Shown in pieces: positions 9,188-32,500 of a stretch of 64,000 bases of DNA. The stretch is from Candidatus Bathyoplasma sp. NZ. GTDB taxonomy: Bacteria > Bacillota_I > Bacilli_A > MAG-NZ. The position numbers and the translations under genes are program-made. The stretch covers positions 1-64,000 of the forward strand of contig JABENI010000007.1 of assembly GCA_013332095.1 (NCBI GenBank), given 5' to 3'. The notes under the pieces were generated by a model that worked only from the letters and a program-made list of their open reading frames with translations, made no database searches and was not told where the DNA came from. Each line of letters starts with the position of its first letter. Position 1 is the stretch's first letter.

Positions 9188-9231
9188 GATCTAAAATAGA
9201 AATTAAGATAACAGTTAGGTTGGTGAGTTGC

Positions 9232-10413
9232 ATGAACAATGTTCCAAAATTGAGATTTAAAGAGTTTAAATTAAACTATAATAAAAATTTCCTAAAATAT
9301 TTATGTACAATCATTGGGGGTGGAACTCCACGCACTGAAAATAATGAATTTTGGAATGGCACTATAGAATGGTTTACTCCTTCCGAAATTGGTAAATCAA
9401 AATATATTTCAAGTTCAGATAGAAAAATAACAGAATTGGGATTAAATAAATCATCTGCAAAAAAATTACCTAAAGGTTCTATACTTTTATCAACTAGAGC
9501 TACAATAGGAGAAGCCTCAATAGCCTTAAAAGAATGCTCAACTAATCAAGGATTTCAATCATTAGTAGTTAATGACAATTGTGAATCAGAATATTTGTTT
9601 TATTTAATTACACAAAATAAAAATAAATTGCTTAAATATTGTACTGGCTCAACTTTTAGAGAAATAAGTAAAAGAGATATTGGGAAATTAGAATATTATA
9701 TTGCTTCAATTGAGGAACAAATCAAAATTGCAACTTTTTTATCTACCATTGATAATAAAATTGAACTTTTGTCACATAAACTAGAACTCCTTAAGTTATA
9801 TAAAAGAGGATTTATTAGGAAATCTATTACTGAATTAAAATTACAATGCGATATAGAAAAACTGCTTAATATTACAAAAAAAATGTTTTCTGGAGGAACA
9901 CCAAAATCTACCGTTACTGAATATTACAATGGTAAAATTCCATTTTTAAAAATCTCAGATATGACATCAACAAATAAGTATTTGAGAACATGCAATAAAT
10001 TTATTACTAAAATAGGGCTTGATAATAGTTCTTCAAAAATTTTACCAAAAGGAAATTTGATATATTCTATGTATGCAACTATTGGTTTAACAGTTGTAAA
10101 TAAAATAGATGTAGCACTACCACAATCTGTTATGGGCATTATTTTAAATGAAAATGTAAACAGAGATTTTATTTATTACCAATTAGAATCTATGATTGAA
10201 TATGTTAGGAATACATTTGTAGAAACAGGTACACAAGGTAATATAAATTCTTCAATAGTTAAAAATTTAGAGCTAGTAATTCCAAATATTGATATACAAA
10301 ATGATTATTCTGTTAAATTTAATTTAATGAATGAAAAAATAAATTGTGTTTCAAATCAATTAGAAAACCTTAAGTTGTTCAAAAAAGGTTTGTTGCAAAA
10401 AATGTTTGTTTAG
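9232..10413 (+). CDS. hsdS: type I restriction-modification specificity subunit HsdS (orphan)
   Basis: HsdS gives type I restriction-modification complexes their DNA target. Two target-recognition domains are visible (about residues 5-165 and 205-355), each with the family pattern GGGTPRTENNEFWNG / SGGTPKSTVTEYYNG and a following STRATIGEAS / SMYATIGLT segment. Each is followed by a conserved coiled helix with the same end (LELLKLYKRGFIRK and LENLKLFKKGLLQKMFV), the internal repeat expected of HsdS. The ATG at 9232 is preferred over TTG 9220 because GGTGAG lies just upstream. No hsdM or hsdR is in this window, so it is an orphan here. Related 3' fragments occur at about 21500 and 27385. Confidence 0.9.
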   Translation: MNNVPKLRFKEFKLNYNKNFLKYLCTIIGGGTPRTENNEFWNGTIEWFTPSEIGKSKYISSSDRKITELGLNKSSAKKLPKGSILLSTRATIGEASIALKECSTNQGFQSLVVNDNCESEYLFYLITQNKNKLLKYCTGSTFREISKRDIGKLEYYIASIEEQIKIATFLSTIDNKIELLSHKLELLKLYKRGFIRKSITELKLQCDIEKLLNITKKMFSGGTPKSTVTEYYNGKIPFLKISDMTSTNKYLRTCNKFITKIGLDNSSSKILPKGNLIYSMYATIGLTVVNKIDVALPQSVMGIILNENVNRDFIYYQLESMIEYVRNTFVETGTQGNINSSIVKNLELVIPNIDIQNDYSVKFNLMNEKINCVSNQLENLKLFKKGLLQKMFV

Positions 10414-10423
10414 AAAGATTGAG

Positions 10424-10660
10424 GGAAATATACACACTATTTTAAAAATATGATTCATATAGTTTTTTTGAAATCCTAAAAATGGAATTTTTAAAAAAAT
10501 AAAGGAATATAATGATAAAATTGTGGCATAATCTGATTTTAAAGAATTAACAGAATATTTTTTAAATTTGTATTCAGTTGAATAAATACAAATATTTTTT
10601 TAAAAAAAGAAATTGTATAAAAATTTAGGAGTGACATATGAAAATAATTAATAGAATTCA
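10424..10660 (+). repeat. hsdS-downstream direct repeat, copy A (other copy near 27480)
   Basis: The stretch beginning ATACACACTATTTTAAAAAT and ending in a short reading frame start (MKIINRIQ, ATG near 10638) recurs at 27482-27600 with the same order and only small changes and a deletion. Both copies follow an hsdS 3' end. It looks like the remains of a gene or spacer that travelled with hsdS. No intact coding frame is left. Confidence 0.6.
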
Positions 10661-10677
10661 ATGCAAAGTAATTATGT

Positions 10678-20612: not shown

Positions 20613-21404
20613 TTGTATTATAATATTTTGATAGAATTAAAAAAAGGAAAAAATAAAAACGCGATTATAGAAACGGATCTCGATATTGAGAAAATCGAGA
20701 ATAAAATTAAATCTTATTTGAATGGTAATGACTTTTCCGTAAATGGGTATGTTTCCAATAAGAATAACATTTCAAGATTAGTAGTGAAAAAATAAGAAAA
20801 AAGCATGGGTACATTATTGAAAGAAGCATCTGAAAATAGTTCAGTCTTTTACTTTCCCGTTGAAGAGACAATAATGAATGACAGAGAATGGGAAGATATA
20901 GCAGAAGAGTTAATAAACAAAAGTACTAATGTTAATTGTCAAACATTAAGAAATATTGATAAAACAGCAAGTAAAAGAGTATTTATTGTTCATGGAAGAG
21001 AAGAGACATCTAAAGGGGAATTAAAAGAATTTTTAATAAACATAAATTTAGAGCCAGTCATTTTACATGAGCAATTAAATAATGGAATGACTATAATTGA
21101 AAAAATAGAAAAATACTCCGATGTGTCGTATGGAATAGTTATCTATACTGGTTGTGATTCAGTAGCATTGAATAACACAAATGATTATAAAAAAAGAGCA
21201 AGACAAAATGTAGTATTTGAACATGGATATTTACTTGCAAAGTTAGGACGTGGAAATGTTGCTGCTTTAGTATTTGATGACATTGAACTACCTAATGATA
21301 TATCAGGTGTAATTTATATATCAAAAGATCATTGGAAGATTAAATTGGCTAAAGAACTTAAAAGTGTGTTTAAGAATTTAGATTTGAATAATTTGATTGA
21401 TTAA
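20613..21404 (+). pseudogene. TIR-like nucleotide-binding protein (PF10137 type) with an in-frame stop
   Basis: An N-terminal domain (YYNILIELKKGKNKNAIIETD, from TTG 20613, 6 bases after AAGGAGGTG) and a TIR-like domain (KRVFIVHGREETSKGELKEF ... YGIVIYTGCD ... RARQNVVFEHGYLLAKLGR) are in the same frame and separated only by a TAA at 20793-20795. The two domains occur in this order in one polypeptide in the family whose members include TIR-like effectors of nucleotide-signalling phage defence. The ATG at 20805 has no good ribosome site. Most likely one gene broken by a single nonsense change; a split gene or read-through is possible. No cyclase partner gene is adjacent. Confidence 0.65.
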
Positions 21405-21499
21405 TAATTTGAGGCGTTTATGGAATTTAGATCACTTTTAGTTTAAAATAGGTAAATATATAAAGTCATTTTACAATAGATTTTTAGTTTGAAAAAGTA

Positions 21500-21556
21500 A
21501 TTAAAAAACTTCAAGTTGTTTCAAAAAGAACTTTTGCAAAAAATGTTTGTTTAGAT
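21500..21556 (+). pseudogene. hsdS 3'-end fragment
   Basis: The stretch AAGTTGTTTCAAAAAGAAC and TTTTGCAAAAAATGTTTGTT TAG matches the last 50 or so bases of the intact hsdS (10365-10415), including the stop and the following A. Only the tail remains. It sits between the TIR-like gene and the AAA ATPase gene, and the rest of 21405-21941 holds no gene I can support. Confidence 0.6.
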
Positions 21557-21941
21557 AGGCTAATAATCTCTATTTTCATACGGTAAATGTATTAATTTTT
21601 AGTTATAGAATTGTAGTTAATTTCCTTTCTTATCCAAATTTATTATTGTACAATATATTTAAACGAAAACATAACATATAAAAAATAAGATCGAATCAAG
21701 CATTATGCGTACTGATGTCATTGTTATTTATTAAATCAAGAATTAGCAAAAAAGAGTTGTTTTGTAATCACAAAGATGAGCAAAATAACATTTAATTATT
21801 TTAAAATGAAATTTATACATATTAAATTATTTAGATGTTAAAGAATTTAAGTTAAAAAAGAATTCTTGTATTTAGTTGATATAATTGAGTGTCAATAAAA
21901 AATACAAATCATTCGAAATAATCCAAATTTAGGAGGTTTTT

Positions 21942-24068
21942 ATGAGATTAAAATGGAATGAAAAAAAATTTAAATCAATAATTAATTTAGAATCGGTAAA
22001 CATACCGAATTTTACTGTAATAACAGGTATTAATGGTTCTGGAAAAACACAACTCTTAGAAGCAATAGAATCATCTGGAAGTATTCGAAATAATCAAGAC
22101 AAAATTGTTATTTTACTAGACGAAAATCAAAAAGAAATAAATAATTCAATATATTTTCATAATGATAGTTTTAGGTTTTTTGCTGATATAGATTCAAAAA
22201 AAGTAAATAAAAAATTTAACAATCTAGATGATTATAAAATTCGTGATATTATTAAAAAAATGGATGATGAGATTGAAAAAATGCATGATGAGATTAAAAA
22301 AATTAATAATCCAATCAGCAATTTTTTTGGAATTAAAAATCCGGTAGATTTGAGATTCATTATTTATAGTAAAATGATAAATATTATTTTTGACTCTGAA
22401 AATAATGTCGATTATGATTTTTTTAAAAATGAAATTAATAAAAAAGAATTATATGCTGAAGATGTTATAAACTATTGTGATGAACCAGACAATGAGATAC
22501 CAACGGTCAATGATATTATTGGGTTTCTTAAAGAAATAAAAGTTGAAAAAACTTATGATATTATTAATGAATGCAAAAAAAATATATTTGATGTTGAAGG
22601 AATTTATTTAATACTTCTAGTCGCAAAAAAGAAAAAAAAGAAATGGGCCTATGTAAGAGAGGAGGATTTTATTTTTCGAAAAAATTATTTTGGTCATAAA
22701 TTAATTAATCTTTGTAATGAATTTCTATATCAAGAAAGATTATACATTTTACGTAATGTATCCAAAGCTGCTAAAAATTTGTCAAATGTTACAGTCGATA
22801 CTGCGGAATACAGAAAAAAAAATCAGCCACCGTGGGAATTTTTTAATAACGTTTTGTTAGAGTATGATTGTAATAATTATAGGTTGAATTGTGCAAATTT
22901 TAATATATGTCTTGATTCATATGAAGATTTGAAACTTCGTGATATTTCTCTTACTAACGGAACAAATTTTGTACGAATTGATGACCTATCAAGTGGAGAA
23001 AAAGTTTTATTGGCTTTCGCATATGTTTTATATGAAAATCAGAGCGAAATATATCCAAAAATTCTATTATTAGATGAAATAGATTCGTCATTGCATCCTT
23101 CTATGGTAAAAAAATTAATTGACGTTTTGAAAAAAAATTTTATTAATGAATATAAAATGGTCATAATTATGGTGACACATTCTCCTACTACTATTGCTCT
23201 ATGTCCAGAAAGTTCAGTGTTTGAATTAATCAAAAATGAACAAAGTCATATTCTAAAGAAAACCACTAGAGATATTGCAATTTCTAGACTATTGCATGGA
23301 GTACCAAAACTTTCTATTAATTGTGAAACTTCGAAGCAAATTTTTGTTGAAAGTGAAATTGATTCAAAAGTTTATAATTATTTATACAAAGCCCTAATAA
23401 ATGGAAAAAAAATTAATGATGATGTACCGCTTAATTTCATTTCTTCAGGTATTAGTAAAAAAAATTCAGGAAACTGTGCCGAAGTAAAAAAAATAGTTAA
23501 AATATTAAGAGATAACGGCAACAAAAATATATTTGGTATTGTAGATAAAGATTCAAATGAGATTTCAAAAGAAGAAGGGATTTTTACACTTAAGAGATAC
23601 AGTATAGAGAATTATTTACTCGATCCTGTTGTGATTTTTAGAACGATTTTTTCGCTTGAATATAATAAGAATAATTTTTTCAAACAAATAAATTATGATT
23701 TTGCTGATCTCTACGATTTATCTAAATCCCAATCTCAAATTGATAAAATGGCTAGTGAAAAATTGCAAAAAATTTCTGATCAAATTATTGAAATATTAGA
23801 ATTTGATTATAAAAATGGAACATATTCATACGCTTTCGATGATAGAATTATTAAACTTCCTAATGATTTTATAAGTGCTAACGGTCATGATATTGAAAAA
23901 AAATATTTAGAAGAATTTGATTTCTTAACATATTACACACGCGGTATTAAAACTAAATTAATATTAGAGATTTCAAAAAATATGTTTGAATCTGATTTGT
24001 GGAACTATATTCATGATGATATAGTTAAAATTTTTAATGACATACAAAAGAATCATTGTCCTAGATAA
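21942..24068 (+). CDS. AAA/ABC-type ATPase with C-terminal DUF4435 (TOPRIM-like) domain
   Basis: 708 aa. The N-terminal part is an SMC/OLD-like ATPase: Walker A TGINGSGKT (residues 28-36), a long charged insertion, signature LSSGEK (about 349), Walker B ILLLDEIDSSLHP (about 372) and H-loop VTHSP (about 409). From about 465 it has a DUF4435-type domain: IFVESEIDSKVYNYL, FGIVDKDSNE (about 531) and LKRYSIENYLLDP (about 552), with acidic residues typical of a TOPRIM-like nuclease. This is the layout of OLD-like phage-defence proteins. Ribosome site AGGAGG. It is followed after 200 bases by a TIR gene. Anti-phage role is inferred from domains and location. Confidence 0.75.
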   Translation: MRLKWNEKKFKSIINLESVNIPNFTVITGINGSGKTQLLEAIESSGSIRNNQDKIVILLDENQKEINNSIYFHNDSFRFFADIDSKKVNKKFNNLDDYKIRDIIKKMDDEIEKMHDEIKKINNPISNFFGIKNPVDLRFIIYSKMINIIFDSENNVDYDFFKNEINKKELYAEDVINYCDEPDNEIPTVNDIIGFLKEIKVEKTYDIINECKKNIFDVEGIYLILLVAKKKKKKWAYVREEDFIFRKNYFGHKLINLCNEFLYQERLYILRNVSKAAKNLSNVTVDTAEYRKKNQPPWEFFNNVLLEYDCNNYRLNCANFNICLDSYEDLKLRDISLTNGTNFVRIDDLSSGEKVLLAFAYVLYENQSEIYPKILLLDEIDSSLHPSMVKKLIDVLKKNFINEYKMVIIMVTHSPTTIALCPESSVFELIKNEQSHILKKTTRDIAISRLLHGVPKLSINCETSKQIFVESEIDSKVYNYLYKALINGKKINDDVPLNFISSGISKKNSGNCAEVKKIVKILRDNGNKNIFGIVDKDSNEISKEEGIFTLKRYSIENYLLDPVVIFRTIFSLEYNKNNFFKQINYDFADLYDLSKSQSQIDKMASEKLQKISDQIIEILEFDYKNGTYSYAFDDRIIKLPNDFISANGHDIEKKYLEEFDFLTYYTRGIKTKLILEISKNMFESDLWNYIHDDIVKIFNDIQKNHCPR

Positions 24069-24270
24069 AACTTTTCGGACTCTTAATTCAACTTACCTAT
24101 TTGATTACTATATCATTTAAATTACAATAGTTTTAAATTTTTATTAAGTAACTGATTTAATGATAAAAATTTTAAATAAATAAAATACAAGGATATCTAA
24201 TCGTTAGAGATATTATTTTGGAAAGCTAGTTCACAGCATAATATTATAAATAAAGGAAAGAGGTAATTAC

Positions 24271-25074
24271 ATGATATTTATATCTTATAATAAAAACGAT
24301 TTATCTATTGTAGAACCAACAGCATTATTATTACAAAAAATGTTTGGGAAAAATGATGTTTTCTTTGCTGAAAATTCAATAGATTTTGGAGATTCAATTC
24401 CTGAAAAAATGTCTTTTGGATTAGACAAGCAATCAATATTTGTTTTGTTTCTTTCAAAAAATAGTTTGGAAAGTAATGCAGTTAAAGCAGAATTAAATAC
24501 AGCTTTTATGAAACAATTCTCGAAAGATAATTTGAAATTATTTATCACTATCAAGTTAGATAATTGCGAAATACCGTCTATATTAAAGCCATACAAGTAC
24601 ATTAATTTTTCCGATTATGAAAATCGTGTTGATTTTACAAATGACTTACAATACACAGTAGGAAAGCACATTGCGAGAATAAGCAAAGGGTTCTCAAATT
24701 ACTTTGGGATTCTATATTTTTTCAAAAATCGTAAAAAGATAAAATTAGAACTAGAACCATTAGAAGATAATCTTAGAAAGCGTTTTTTTATAAGTTTTTT
24801 AAACGACCCTGAAAATATTAAAATAGGCTGTATAGAAAAACATGAGCGCATAAGGATGGGTAAAATAAAGGATGTAAAATTGTCAAGTGAAGATAATTCT
24901 TTATTTAGGCGAAACGGAATTTCTTTAATATTACCTGGTTCAAGCATTCAAGGAGAAAATATTGTTATTAATGACATAGTATCAGATTATGTCTTAGATC
25001 AGTTACTTGTATCATCTATAATAAATAATATATTCATACCAATATATTGTATTAAAAGATATTTAAATGAATAA
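24271..25074 (+). CDS. TIR-domain protein with unknown C-terminal domain
   Basis: The N-terminal TIR domain (residues 1-130) starts MIFISYNKNDLSIVEPTALLL and contains DVFFAENSIDFGDSIPEKM and LFLSKNSLESNAVKAEL; Glu74 of KAEL is at the position of the catalytic Glu of NAD-cleaving TIR domains. The C-terminal 135 residues have no family I recognise and may be a sensor or membrane-proximal domain. Ribosome site GAAAGAGG. The gene lies 200 bases after the AAA-DUF4435 gene in the same direction, so the two may form one defence system, with TIR as an NAD-depleting effector. That pairing is inference. Confidence 0.7.
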   Translation: MIFISYNKNDLSIVEPTALLLQKMFGKNDVFFAENSIDFGDSIPEKMSFGLDKQSIFVLFLSKNSLESNAVKAELNTAFMKQFSKDNLKLFITIKLDNCEIPSILKPYKYINFSDYENRVDFTNDLQYTVGKHIARISKGFSNYFGILYFFKNRKKIKLELEPLEDNLRKRFFISFLNDPENIKIGCIEKHERIRMGKIKDVKLSSEDNSLFRRNGISLILPGSSIQGENIVINDIVSDYVLDQLLVSSIINNIFIPIYCIKRYLNE

Positions 25075-25456: not shown

Positions 25457-25664
25457 AGTTATCATTTTATTATTTTTCACATAAAATAGTGTAGAAATTG
25501 AGAATTTTTTTATAATATTTTGGTAAATAATGGAATATCTATGTTATTATATATATACAATAAAGAATTTCTTTATAGAAATAGGCTGATTTATGAACAT
25601 TATGATTTTTACAATATTTAAAATTATTTTCATCTTTAAATCTAAATTTGGGGGATTAAATATT

Positions 25665-26114
25665 ATGAAAAAACTAAAAGCAGTTTCTAATAGAATTGTT
25701 GAATTAATAAATGGAAAAGTTGATAAAATGAAAATTCAAAAATTACTTTATTTTGCTCAAGCTGAACATTTAGTAAAGTATGATAAACCTTTATTTGAGG
25801 AAGATTTTGAGGCATGGGAATATGGACCTGTTATTCTATCTTTATACGAAATATTTTATGCAGATAAAATTTTTGCTAATGTTGATTTAAATTTAAAACC
25901 AAATGAAGAAATTGTTATAGAGAAAATAGTAAATAAATATGGTAATATGGATTCTATTGAATTGAGTGAATTAACACATCTAGAAAATTCGCCTTGGGAC
26001 AAAGTATTTAAAAAGTATAAAAAAGTTTCATGGTTTGGAAGTAGTTCATATTATTGTACTCAAAAAATTTCAAAAGAATCTATGAAAGATTATTATAAAA
26101 ATAATGGAGTTTAA
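25665..26114 (+). CDS. Panacea-domain (DUF4065/SocA-like) antitoxin candidate
   Basis: About 149 aa. The Panacea domain signature is clear: KAVSNRIVELINGKVDKMKI, QKLLYFAQAEHLVKYDKPLF, then EEDFEAWEYGPVILSLYEIF. This domain is the universal antitoxin part of PanTA systems and neutralises unrelated toxins encoded next to it. The ATG at 25665 follows GGGGGA; an upstream in-frame ATG at 25593 lacks a ribosome site. The 3' end overlaps the next gene by 11 bases. Partial copies of this gene lie at 27250, 31690 and 31968. Confidence 0.8.
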   Translation: MKKLKAVSNRIVELINGKVDKMKIQKLLYFAQAEHLVKYDKPLFEEDFEAWEYGPVILSLYEIFYADKIFANVDLNLKPNEEIVIEKIVNKYGNMDSIELSELTHLENSPWDKVFKKYKKVSWFGSSSYYCTQKISKESMKDYYKNNGV

Positions 26115-26958
26115 AGATATAGAAGAAATTATTATAAAATATAAATATTATGATGATATAGAAAAAGAGATTAAAACTCATGATTTTATACATTTTATAA
26201 AAGAAGTTGAAGAAAAAAATATTCCTAATATTCTCGATAAATTTTCTGCAAATGAGTTTGATAATTTGTACGAATTGCATATTGAATGTTCACATAATAG
26301 AGCAATTTTAGATGGAATTATAAAAGGAATTAAAACAACAATAGCGTTAACCAGATTAGACAATATACAATTAAACGAATTTAGTTTATTACAAAATAAA
26401 GCAGAAAGTATTTTATTTAAATTGGATATATTTATAAATGTAATAGGAAATGCTACTTTTTCTAATAGAATAAAAAGAGAAATTGGGTTTACTGAAACAA
26501 AATCAGAAGAAATAAAAGTAGTATTAAAAGAATTAGAAACTAAATATGAGGAAGCGATTGAAAAAATTAAAAAAATGGAAAAAGAAACAAGGGAACTTCA
26601 AAACACTATGCTATTCAGAATGATGTATGTTGTTGGAATGTTTACCGCAATGTTTAGCGTTGTTTCTGTAAGTAGCAATATACTAAGCAATGTTTATCCG
26701 TTTAATCATAACATTTATGATAATAATTTTTGGGCTTATTTTATTTCCATTGTAACACCTGTTGGATTGACTATTTTTAGCATTTATATGGTGTTTCGGT
26801 TGATTAGAATATTTGTAGTATCGTTTTCAAAAAAAGAAGAAAAGCCAGATAAGAAAATTAAGAATTTAAAAATAGCTCTACTTGTTCTAGTTATTGCAAT
26901 TATAAGTGTATTTATCTATAATTTTATAGTTCCAATGTTGATAAAATACTTGAATTAG
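26104..26958 (+). CDS. membrane protein, candidate toxin partner of the Panacea antitoxin
   Basis: 284 aa with no family I recognise. The N-terminal 150 residues are soluble and charged, residues 135-180 are a likely coiled coil (EEIKVVLKELETKYEEAIEK), and the C-terminal half has three membrane segments (RMMYVVGMFTAMFSVVSVSS, FWAYFISIVTPVGLTIFSIY, IALLVLVIAIISVFIYNFIV). The start overlaps the antitoxin stop by 11 bases, the usual arrangement of a toxin-antitoxin pair. Membrane toxins are among the partners described for Panacea antitoxins. The toxin role is inferred from position and topology only. Confidence 0.6.
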   Translation: MEFKDIEEIIIKYKYYDDIEKEIKTHDFIHFIKEVEEKNIPNILDKFSANEFDNLYELHIECSHNRAILDGIIKGIKTTIALTRLDNIQLNEFSLLQNKAESILFKLDIFINVIGNATFSNRIKREIGFTETKSEEIKVVLKELETKYEEAIEKIKKMEKETRELQNTMLFRMMYVVGMFTAMFSVVSVSSNILSNVYPFNHNIYDNNFWAYFISIVTPVGLTIFSIYMVFRLIRIFVVSFSKKEEKPDKKIKNLKIALLVLVIAIISVFIYNFIVPMLIKYLN

Positions 26959-27008
26959 TAATGAAAAAATAAATATATAAATTTCACTAAGAGAAGGGAA
27001 GGTTAAAA

Positions 27009-27272
27009 ATGTTTACTCCAGATGTAATAGAAAAAATTCTTTATGATACAGATTTTAAACTTGTTAAAATAAAGAAAAAAATGATAAGGATAGAAGCAGA
27101 TTTATTTGACTGTTCATGTGTTGAAATAGATCTTAAGCGTAACGAAGTTTCTTTTTTTCATTTATTCAAAACAAATTATTCAACACACGAGTTTAAAGTT
27201 TTTAAACAGTTAGCACATATAGTAGAAAAATTAGAAGAATTAAAAGATTATGAAAATAAAAGCAGTATCTAA
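27009..27272 (+). CDS. hypothetical 87-residue protein of the Panacea module
   Basis: Small soluble protein (FTPDVIEKILYDTDFKLVKI ... VFKQLAHIVEKLEEL) with no recognised family. Ribosome site AGAAGGGAAGG. Two decayed copies occur at 31609 and 32059, and in each case Panacea-like sequence is attached, so the gene belongs to the same mobile module. Its last 23 bases overlap, in another frame, the start of a Panacea remnant (ATG 27250), a layout repeated at 32296. It may be a third component or a passenger. Confidence 0.55.
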   Translation: MFTPDVIEKILYDTDFKLVKIKKKMIRIEADLFDCSCVEIDLKRNEVSFFHLFKTNYSTHEFKVFKQLAHIVEKLEELKDYENKSSI

Positions 27273-27345
27273 TAGAATTGTTAAACCAGTAAATGGAAAA
27301 TATTTATTTGAAGATGATTTCTAGGCGTGGCAATGTGGATCCAAA
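27250..27345 (+). pseudogene. Panacea gene remnant
   Basis: From ATG 27250 the frame reads KIKAVSNRIVKPVNGKYLFEDDF, then a TAG and AWQCGSK. It aligns with the intact Panacea protein (KAVSNRIVELINGK ... LFEEDFEAWEYGP), with an internal deletion of about 25 residues and a nonsense codon. It overlaps the 3' end of the 87-residue gene. Confidence 0.65.
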
Positions 27346-27384: not shown

Positions 27385-27600
27385 TTGAGTTAAAAATTAA
27401 TAGTTTAGAGAACAATATTGAAAATCTTAAATCGCCTAAAAAAAGAATCGTTAAAAAATGTTTATTTAAAAAGAGTGAAGATAATATACACACTATTTTA
27501 AAAATATGATTTATATAATTTTTTTGAAACTTATAAAAAAGAAATTGTAAAAAATTTAGCTGTGATTCATGAAAATAATTGATAGAATTCAAAATGAATT
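27385..27600 (+). repeat. hsdS 3' fragment plus hsdS-downstream repeat, copy B
   Basis: 27385-27475 reads KINSLENNIENLKSPKKRIVKKCLF, a degenerate match to the hsdS C-terminus (KINCVSNQLENLKLFKKGLL). It continues with ATACACACTATTTTAAAAAT and GAAATTG.. MKIIDRIQN, the block found after the intact hsdS at 10424-10660. The same junction in two places shows that hsdS and its downstream sequence once existed in several copies around this island. Confidence 0.6.
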
Positions 27601-27687
27601 GTTAAGCATATTTTTTTCATACCTCAGGTACAGTATAAAAATAATCGTATTTGTTAGAAATAGGGGACTATTTGCATTTTTAAAAAC

Positions 27688-27702
27688 CTTGCAACAGAGT
27701 CC
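27688..27702 (+). repeat. IS6-type terminal repeat remnant
   Basis: CTTGCAACAGAGTCC is a close match to the IS6-family end (reverse GGACTCTGTTGCAAG), similar to the end found at 12061-12075 in the same orientation. No transposase is left near it. The rest of 27603-28007 is AT-rich without any gene I can support. Confidence 0.5.
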
Positions 27703-31608: not shown

Positions 31609-31860
31609 TTGATTACTCCAGATATAATCGAAAAAATTCTTTATGATACAGATTTTAAATTTGTTGAAATAAAGAAAAAAAGGAAGAAACTAGAAGCAAC
31701 TTCTAATAGAATTGTTAAACTAATAAATGGAAAATTTATTAAAAAGTTGATAAAATGAAAATTCAAAAATTACTTTATTTCCTCAAGCTAAATATTTAGT
31801 AGAATATGGTAAAAATTTATTTGAGGAAGGTTTTGAGCTGTGGCAAATATGTGTTGTTAT
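31609..31860 (+). pseudogene. fused remnant of the 87-residue gene and the Panacea gene
   Basis: From TTG 31609, after GGAGGA, the frame matches the 87-residue protein (ITPDIIEKILYDTDFKFVEI) for about 27 residues. It then runs directly into Panacea sequence (KKLEATSNRIVKLINGKF) and, with frame changes, KMKIQKLLYF and LFEEGFELWQIC. A deletion has joined the two genes. It is dead, but it preserves the order of the module. Confidence 0.65.
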
Positions 31861-31869
31861 ATACATATA

Positions 31870-32022
31870 TAATTTATTTATAGAAATATAATGCTTTATA
31901 AACATTACGATTTTTACAATATTAAAATTAACTTCATATTTAATCTAATTGGGGAGAATTGAATATTATGAAATATCTAAAAACAGTTTCTAATAAAATG
32001 GTTGCACTAGTAATCGAAAATA
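31870..32022 (+). pseudogene. promoter block and N-terminus of a second Panacea remnant
   Basis: 31862-31967 matches the promoter and leader of the intact Panacea gene (25560-25664), including CATTACGATTTTTACAATAT and GGGGAGAATTGAATATT. From ATG 31968 the frame reads KYLKTVSNKMVALVIENKY and then passes into the leader of the 87-residue gene copy at 32059, showing an internal deletion. Confidence 0.6.
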
Positions 32023-32058
32023 AATATACAGATTTCATTAAGAGAAGGAGGGTTAAAA

Positions 32059-32318
32059 ATGTTTACTAAAGATGTAATGGAAAAAATTCTTTATGATACA
32101 GATTTTAAACTTGTTAAAATAAAGAAAAAAAAATAATAATAGAGTCAGATTTATTTTTTTTAAGTGCTGAAATAGAACTTAAGAATAATCAAGTTTATAT
32201 TGCAAATTTCCTACAAACGAGATATGTGTTCTTCCAGTTTGGTGTTTTCAAACAGTTAGCACACATAGTAGAAAAAGTAGAAGAATTAAAAAATGAAGAA
32301 AATAAAAGCAGTATCTAA
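32059..32318 (+). pseudogene. second copy of the 87-residue gene, frameshifted
   Basis: Starts FTKDVMEKILYDTDFKLVKIKKK, then hits stops caused by one extra A in an A run (about 32123-32131). In the next frame the match continues to the end (VFKQLAHIVEKVEELKNEEN, stop 32316-32318). The leader AAGAGAAGGAGGGTTAAAA matches that of the intact copy at 26985-27008. Its 3' end again overlaps a Panacea-like start (KKIKAVSN). Confidence 0.7.
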
Positions 32319-32347
32319 TATAAATTGATTATAAAAAAAATAAAATA

Positions 32348-32500
32348 TTGACATAAAATATTATGTATGCTAATATAATTGAGTATTGTGGAAAGAAGGA
32401 GTACCCATTTCTCACCTGACTGTTAACAATGGTAGGTAAAAGTCACATTAAAATAGGAATATTTTAATATCTATGGGTGCTAAAAATTAGTACTCTTTTT
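32348..32500 (+). promoter_or_regulatory. promoter and attenuator leader of infC-rpmI-rplT
   Basis: TTGACA at 32348-32353 and TATAAT at 32374-32379 precede a leader in which GAGTACCCAT (32399-32408) pairs with ATGGGT (32473-32478) and GTACTC (32490-32495), followed by a T run at 32496-32500, so it forms a terminator. An inner pairing GACT/AGTC lies in the loop. In Bacillota this operon is controlled by an L20-binding leader that causes premature termination; position, size and the terminator fit, but I cannot confirm the L20 site. Confidence 0.65.

Follow-up and report, generated by a model that had tools for sequence, protein, structure and literature searches.

Two overlapping genes in the window, the whole 64,000-nucleotide stretch of DNA from Candidatus Bathyoplasma sp. 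NZ analysed here, likely form an antitoxin-first Panacea toxin-antitoxin (PanAT) module with a membrane-damaging toxin, set in a run of defence-like genes. This reading draws on the Panacea domain, the 11-base overlap, the antitoxin-first order, the linkage of a family of membrane proteins to Panacea genes, the likeness of the partner to that family and the defence-like neighbours. What is new is modest: a putative distant member of the family, a strong linkage of two PHROGs to Panacea and an orphan small gene among array remnants (Table 1).

Table 1. Features of the Panacea locus and of the decayed copies downstream of it.
Feature	Position	Strand	Evidence
panA, single-domain Panacea antitoxin, 149 aa	25665..26114	+	PF13274, phrog_1281, PanA alignment
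panT candidate, 284 aa, helical N-terminal part, coiled coil, three TM helices	26104..26958	+	overlap with panA, hhalign, phmmer
87-aa orphan protein, predicted a-bbbb-a fold	27009..27272	+	ORF; AF2 pLDDT 76, single sequence
Decayed second panA start, internal deletion, in-frame stop	27253..27339	+	DNA comparison
Remnant of hsdS 3' end and downstream DNA	27392..27698	+	79% to 10335-10497, 88% to 10603-10661
87-aa gene, first 30 codons, deletion-fused to panA piece	31609..31698	+	86% DNA identity, 95 bases
Decayed panA body, frameshifts	31684..31912	+	76% DNA identity
panA upstream region and first ~16 codons, copy	31858..32020	+	81% DNA identity, 166 bases
Frameshifted 87-aa gene copy, ending on panA start	32059..32315	+	79% DNA identity, 365 bases including intergenic part

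The Panacea gene and its overlapping partner

The open reading frame of panA spans 25593-26114, and we place its start at 25665, where a plausible ribosome site (ggggg...ATG) is found and with which homologous PanAs agree. The product matches PF13274 with an E-value of 3.2e-21 and 76.8 bits, 51 bits over the cut-off of 25.7, and phrog_1281 with an E-value of 2.2e-37; when aligned with five other PanAs, 14 columns are invariant. In a PanA tree, it falls outside the PanAs of the toxin family described below, a placement without support. A second Panacea gene is present in the same genome (L002:1095-1923, minus strand, contig C39); its overlapping partner differs, being apparently soluble and 113 aa long.

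The panA gene comes first and shares bases 26104-26114 with the gene of the 284-aa partner, as the first-pass annotation had described. Both marks of a PanAT locus, a Panacea (DUF4065) antitoxin and an adjacent or overlapping partner gene within 100 nt, are thus found here. The partner has a coiled coil at approximately residues 130-168, followed by three TM segments, all C-terminal, which hydropathy places at approximately 176-194, 213-231 and 257-275. Its AF2 model, built on an alignment containing members of the coiled-coil/3-TM family, shows one long helix (94-200), in which the coiled coil runs into TM1, and further helices at 209-242 and 250-283.

The first-pass annotation had recognised no family for the partner, and Pfam, PADLOC and PHROG gave no match of value, a Foldseek search with the model gave no match, and tblastn and pattern searches found no close relatives in plasmids, phages, 149 related genomes, IMG/VR or GTDB contigs. 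A pilin-like NCBIfam match (E 3e-5) is hydrophobic in nature and under its cut-off, and L004 (genome G101), a match from the partner search, is an unrelated multi-TM protein; both were discarded.

The pair is preceded at 20805-25071 by a run of defence-like genes comprising a CAP12/PCTIR TIR protein (PF10137, E 3.3e-35), an AAA ATPase with an AriA-like match and a TIR_2 protein (TIR PF13676) whose C-terminal part has no assignment. Further upstream, 9220-10413 is hsdS (Methylase_S PF01420, E 1.2e-39), with no hsdM or hsdR evident among the surrounding ORFs.

A Panacea-linked family of coiled-coil membrane proteins

Panacea loci were fetched from related genomes and phages and their downstream proteins inspected. 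At several of these loci, the downstream gene encodes a coiled-coil protein that ends in three or four TM helices. The first such proteins were L139 and L007, from genomes of the same class, and L040, from a Helicobacter rodentium prophage; searches with these three added L152 and L157 (genome G263) and proteins of Streptococcus, Listeria and Moraxella phages. A 12-member profile then retrieved 43 viral loci from IMG/VR. Of these, 41 are preceded on the same strand by a Panacea gene, in 40 cases immediately, at gaps of -71 to +25 bases (mostly -20 to +25). Pfam searches of five phage loci found PF13274 upstream in each. Overlap and order in the window are consistent with these antitoxin-first loci, as had been proposed from the window itself, and in L176-L179 and L197 the gap is exactly -11, the same as in the window pair.

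In L199, whose toxin frame is truncated, the Panacea gene stands 426 bases upstream. As for the two loci without Panacea upstream, the toxin gene of L189 begins near a contig end, and in L183 the upstream gene is Panacea-like by eye: the gene before the coiled-coil/3-TM toxin (L183:1031-1822) looks like a strongly diverged Panacea gene with no Pfam match.

Since the profile query contained no Panacea sequence, the linkage belongs to the family itself, with the caveat that the 12 seed proteins were mostly found via Panacea and that Panacea-linked branches may be favoured. The first-pass annotation had named homologues common outside Panacea neighbourhoods as evidence against its pairing; the counts above point the other way for the family, although close relatives of the partner itself were not found. 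The pairing of a Panacea antitoxin with a putative membrane toxin is supported by family linkage and likely family membership, rather than by experiment.

PHROG 5763 and PHROG 38724, neither of which has an annotated function, each match 29 of 29 aligned family members. These two PHROGs are now tied to Panacea antitoxins by near-complete linkage, which opens the entire phage-borne group to testing as membrane toxins. Family members share an (L/M)G(I/V)F motif at the start of TM1 and two N-terminal motifs, R-x-x-Y-S and K-x-x-D-H-x-x-L, in which the Y and the H are near-invariant.

One further protein deserves mention. L213:1414-2208 (minus strand) encodes a dCTP-deaminase-like protein (PF22769, E 2.9e-14) whose C-terminus is made up of a coiled coil and three TM helices with MMGIFVSIFSLVSI; the window partner has a similar VVGMFTAMFSVVSV. 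Possibly, the same membrane module as in the window partner has here been joined to a nucleotide-sensing domain.

Relationship of the partner to the family

We consider it fairly probable, on profile comparison, that the window partner is a divergent member of this coiled-coil/3-TM family. Aligned by hhalign to the 29-member family (A4), it reached a probability of 86%, an E-value of 4.8e-6 and a score of 44.3, whereas none of 300 local shuffles exceeded 27.1 and none of 34 other TM proteins exceeded 24.8. The first 12-member profile had given the partner 9.8%, after which the profile was enlarged; this choice was checked by re-sampling with nine further profiles, in which the partner scored above every decoy and shuffle (27-41 versus 21-31), with probabilities of 10-76%. 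When the partner was used as a phmmer query over 1,177 ORFs, the top two matches were family members, L183 (2.2e-6) and L192 (1.5e-5). Its alignment to the family is collinear across the coiled coil and the three TM helices, and the partner retains the family G-x-F where TM1 begins, as VGMF at 177-180 (G178, F180).

The window pair might instead be a PanAT pair with a separate, unrelated membrane/coiled-coil toxin, its likeness to the family being convergence on a coiled coil with hydrophobic helices. This would account for the empty direct searches reported above, for the failure of a HMMER family profile, built without the window protein and run on its own genome, to recover the partner, and for hhalign probabilities that go down to 10-28% with some sub-profiles. 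In one HMMER test, 6 of 3000 local shuffles scored as well as the partner; neither half of the partner is significant by itself, and the partner does not reach the models of PHROG 5763 and 38724. The near-invariant N-terminal Y and H are replaced, the two N-terminal motifs being absent, which weakens any claim to core-family membership. Convergence, however, sits poorly with a protein that came out ahead of both the local shuffles and 34 genuine TM proteins in every comparison, and with collinearity that extends to G-x-F; we regard an unrelated toxin as unlikely.

The suggestion of a new membrane toxin can thus be retained in a narrower sense: the partner may be new as a divergent member but not as a new kind, because its architecture has already been described for the PanT of Helicobacter sp. 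(PMC8832971). As a very divergent example, the window pair could help in asking how a single antitoxin fold keeps pace with a membrane toxin that changes fast.

The 87-residue gene and the decayed copies

An 87-aa gene begins 50 bases after the Panacea pair. Its 3' end overlaps the next Panacea start, with ATGAAAATAAAAGCAGTATCTAATAG at approximately 27250 and a degenerate form near 32291. Its product has no match of value in Pfam, PADLOC or PHROG, and Foldseek searches of its AF2 model against PDB and BFVD returned nothing at E <= 0.001. A weak ChrB_C match, under its cut-off, and weak KA1-like Foldseek matches were not used. No relatives turned up when 149 related genomes, 50,697 phages and 72,556 plasmids were searched, in pattern scans of IMG/VR and GTDB, or among 19,249 reading-frame pieces of the loci collected by then.

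Decayed Panacea pieces and copies of the 87-aa gene recur at 31609-32330. A deletion at 31676 fused the 87-aa gene to a Panacea piece. In 31858-32349, both the body of Panacea and the partner have been lost, so that the upstream region and start of Panacea now lead into the intergenic stretch and an 87-aa gene with frameshifts. With 76-86% DNA identity and E-values down to 3e-83, these copies are not due to chance. The second hsdS end (27392-27698) adjoins a decayed Panacea copy. The earlier impression that the small gene accompanies each decayed copy is accurate for the Panacea pieces and the 87-aa gene; it does not extend to the whole module, as no copy of the 284-aa partner is left in the decayed units.

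Such debris would be expected, we infer, from a former tandem array of Panacea, partner and small gene. The array idea could be taken further, as a tandem module of three-part units, each made up of Panacea, a membrane toxin that changes fast and a small protein variable in its middle; one unit would still be live, and at least two more would survive as debris. Each small gene runs into the next Panacea start, so that array copies could recombine and swap toxins. We find this version improbable.

Even less credible to us is that the 87-aa protein completes a three-gene module as an obligate component, be it regulator, immunity protein or sensor. The position of the gene 50 bases behind the pair would fit such a role, as would its recurrence with a Panacea start in both decayed places and a pattern of change between copies that spares the N- and C-terminal parts and affects the middle. 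However, the protein has no relatives beyond the window, and the gene neighbourhood of Panacea, partner and 87-aa gene proposed for searching does not recur: no 87-aa-type gene is found downstream of the toxin in viral family members. Among PanAT loci, only small proportions carry a third gene (Kurata et al. 2022, PMC8832971). Moreover, on the few sites available dN is close to dS (0.29 and 0.36), as the decay of one of the two copies would produce, and purifying selection between the copies is not detectable. The idea of a constant third part is therefore unsupported beyond this window. The 87-aa protein is an orphan neighbour, constant inside this window only, and is probably not needed for the Panacea-partner pair.

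Finally, we give almost no credence to a Panacea-domain regulator and a membrane structural protein being neighbours by chance: in its favour, no promoter or terminator signal rises above chance, but the gene overlap, the antitoxin-first order and the strong Panacea linkage of the probable family speak against it.

Proposed mechanism

Under the PanAT reading, PanA would be translated first and then jointly with its partner through the translational overlap. PanA may bind the membrane partner, PanT, and neutralise it by complex formation, while the coiled coil of PanT could assemble several copies. Once freed, PanT would depolarise the inner membrane through its three C-terminal helices and growth would stop. 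The trigger is likely phage infection, in a putative defence of the abortive-infection type.

Comparison with known systems

Among the closest known systems is the PanT of Helicobacter sp., a validated toxin neutralised by Panacea, which depolarises the membrane without large pores (Kurata et al. 2022, PMC8832971). Its coiled coil is N-terminal and its TM helices are C-terminal (PMC8832971). In general, Panacea antitoxins form direct complexes with their toxins (Kurata et al. 2022, PMC8832971), and membrane PanTs are a major class of PanTs (PMC8832971). The PanAT of Helicobacter sp. 13S00482-2 (PanT WP_095295403.1) and the window pair have the same antitoxin domain and toxin layout, a likeness drawn from the published description, and by this analogy the Helicobacter mechanism may apply to the window pair. 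The nearest Helicobacter pair that we compared is that of the H. rodentium prophage (L040), to which the window partner is remotely similar (single pair E 0.011).

The PHROG 5763/38724 phage family agrees with the window partner in gene order, range of lengths and arrangement of helices; the partner nevertheless falls short of the PHROG models. The membrane PanTs of E. coli STEC O31 and Bartonella apis (T3/T12, Kurata 2022) are likewise Panacea-linked and have a charged N-terminal part; however, they are shorter (~140-190 aa), have two TM helices and do not align to the family of the window partner. By length and layout, L029, L065 and L044 are probably of this type. The RosmerTA toxin RmrT D5 of Gordonia phage Kita is also membrane-depolarising, with a membrane C-terminus, and its system is anti-phage (PMC10440598). 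Its antitoxin is of the ImmA/Rosmer kind (PMC10440598), whereas that of the window pair is Panacea.
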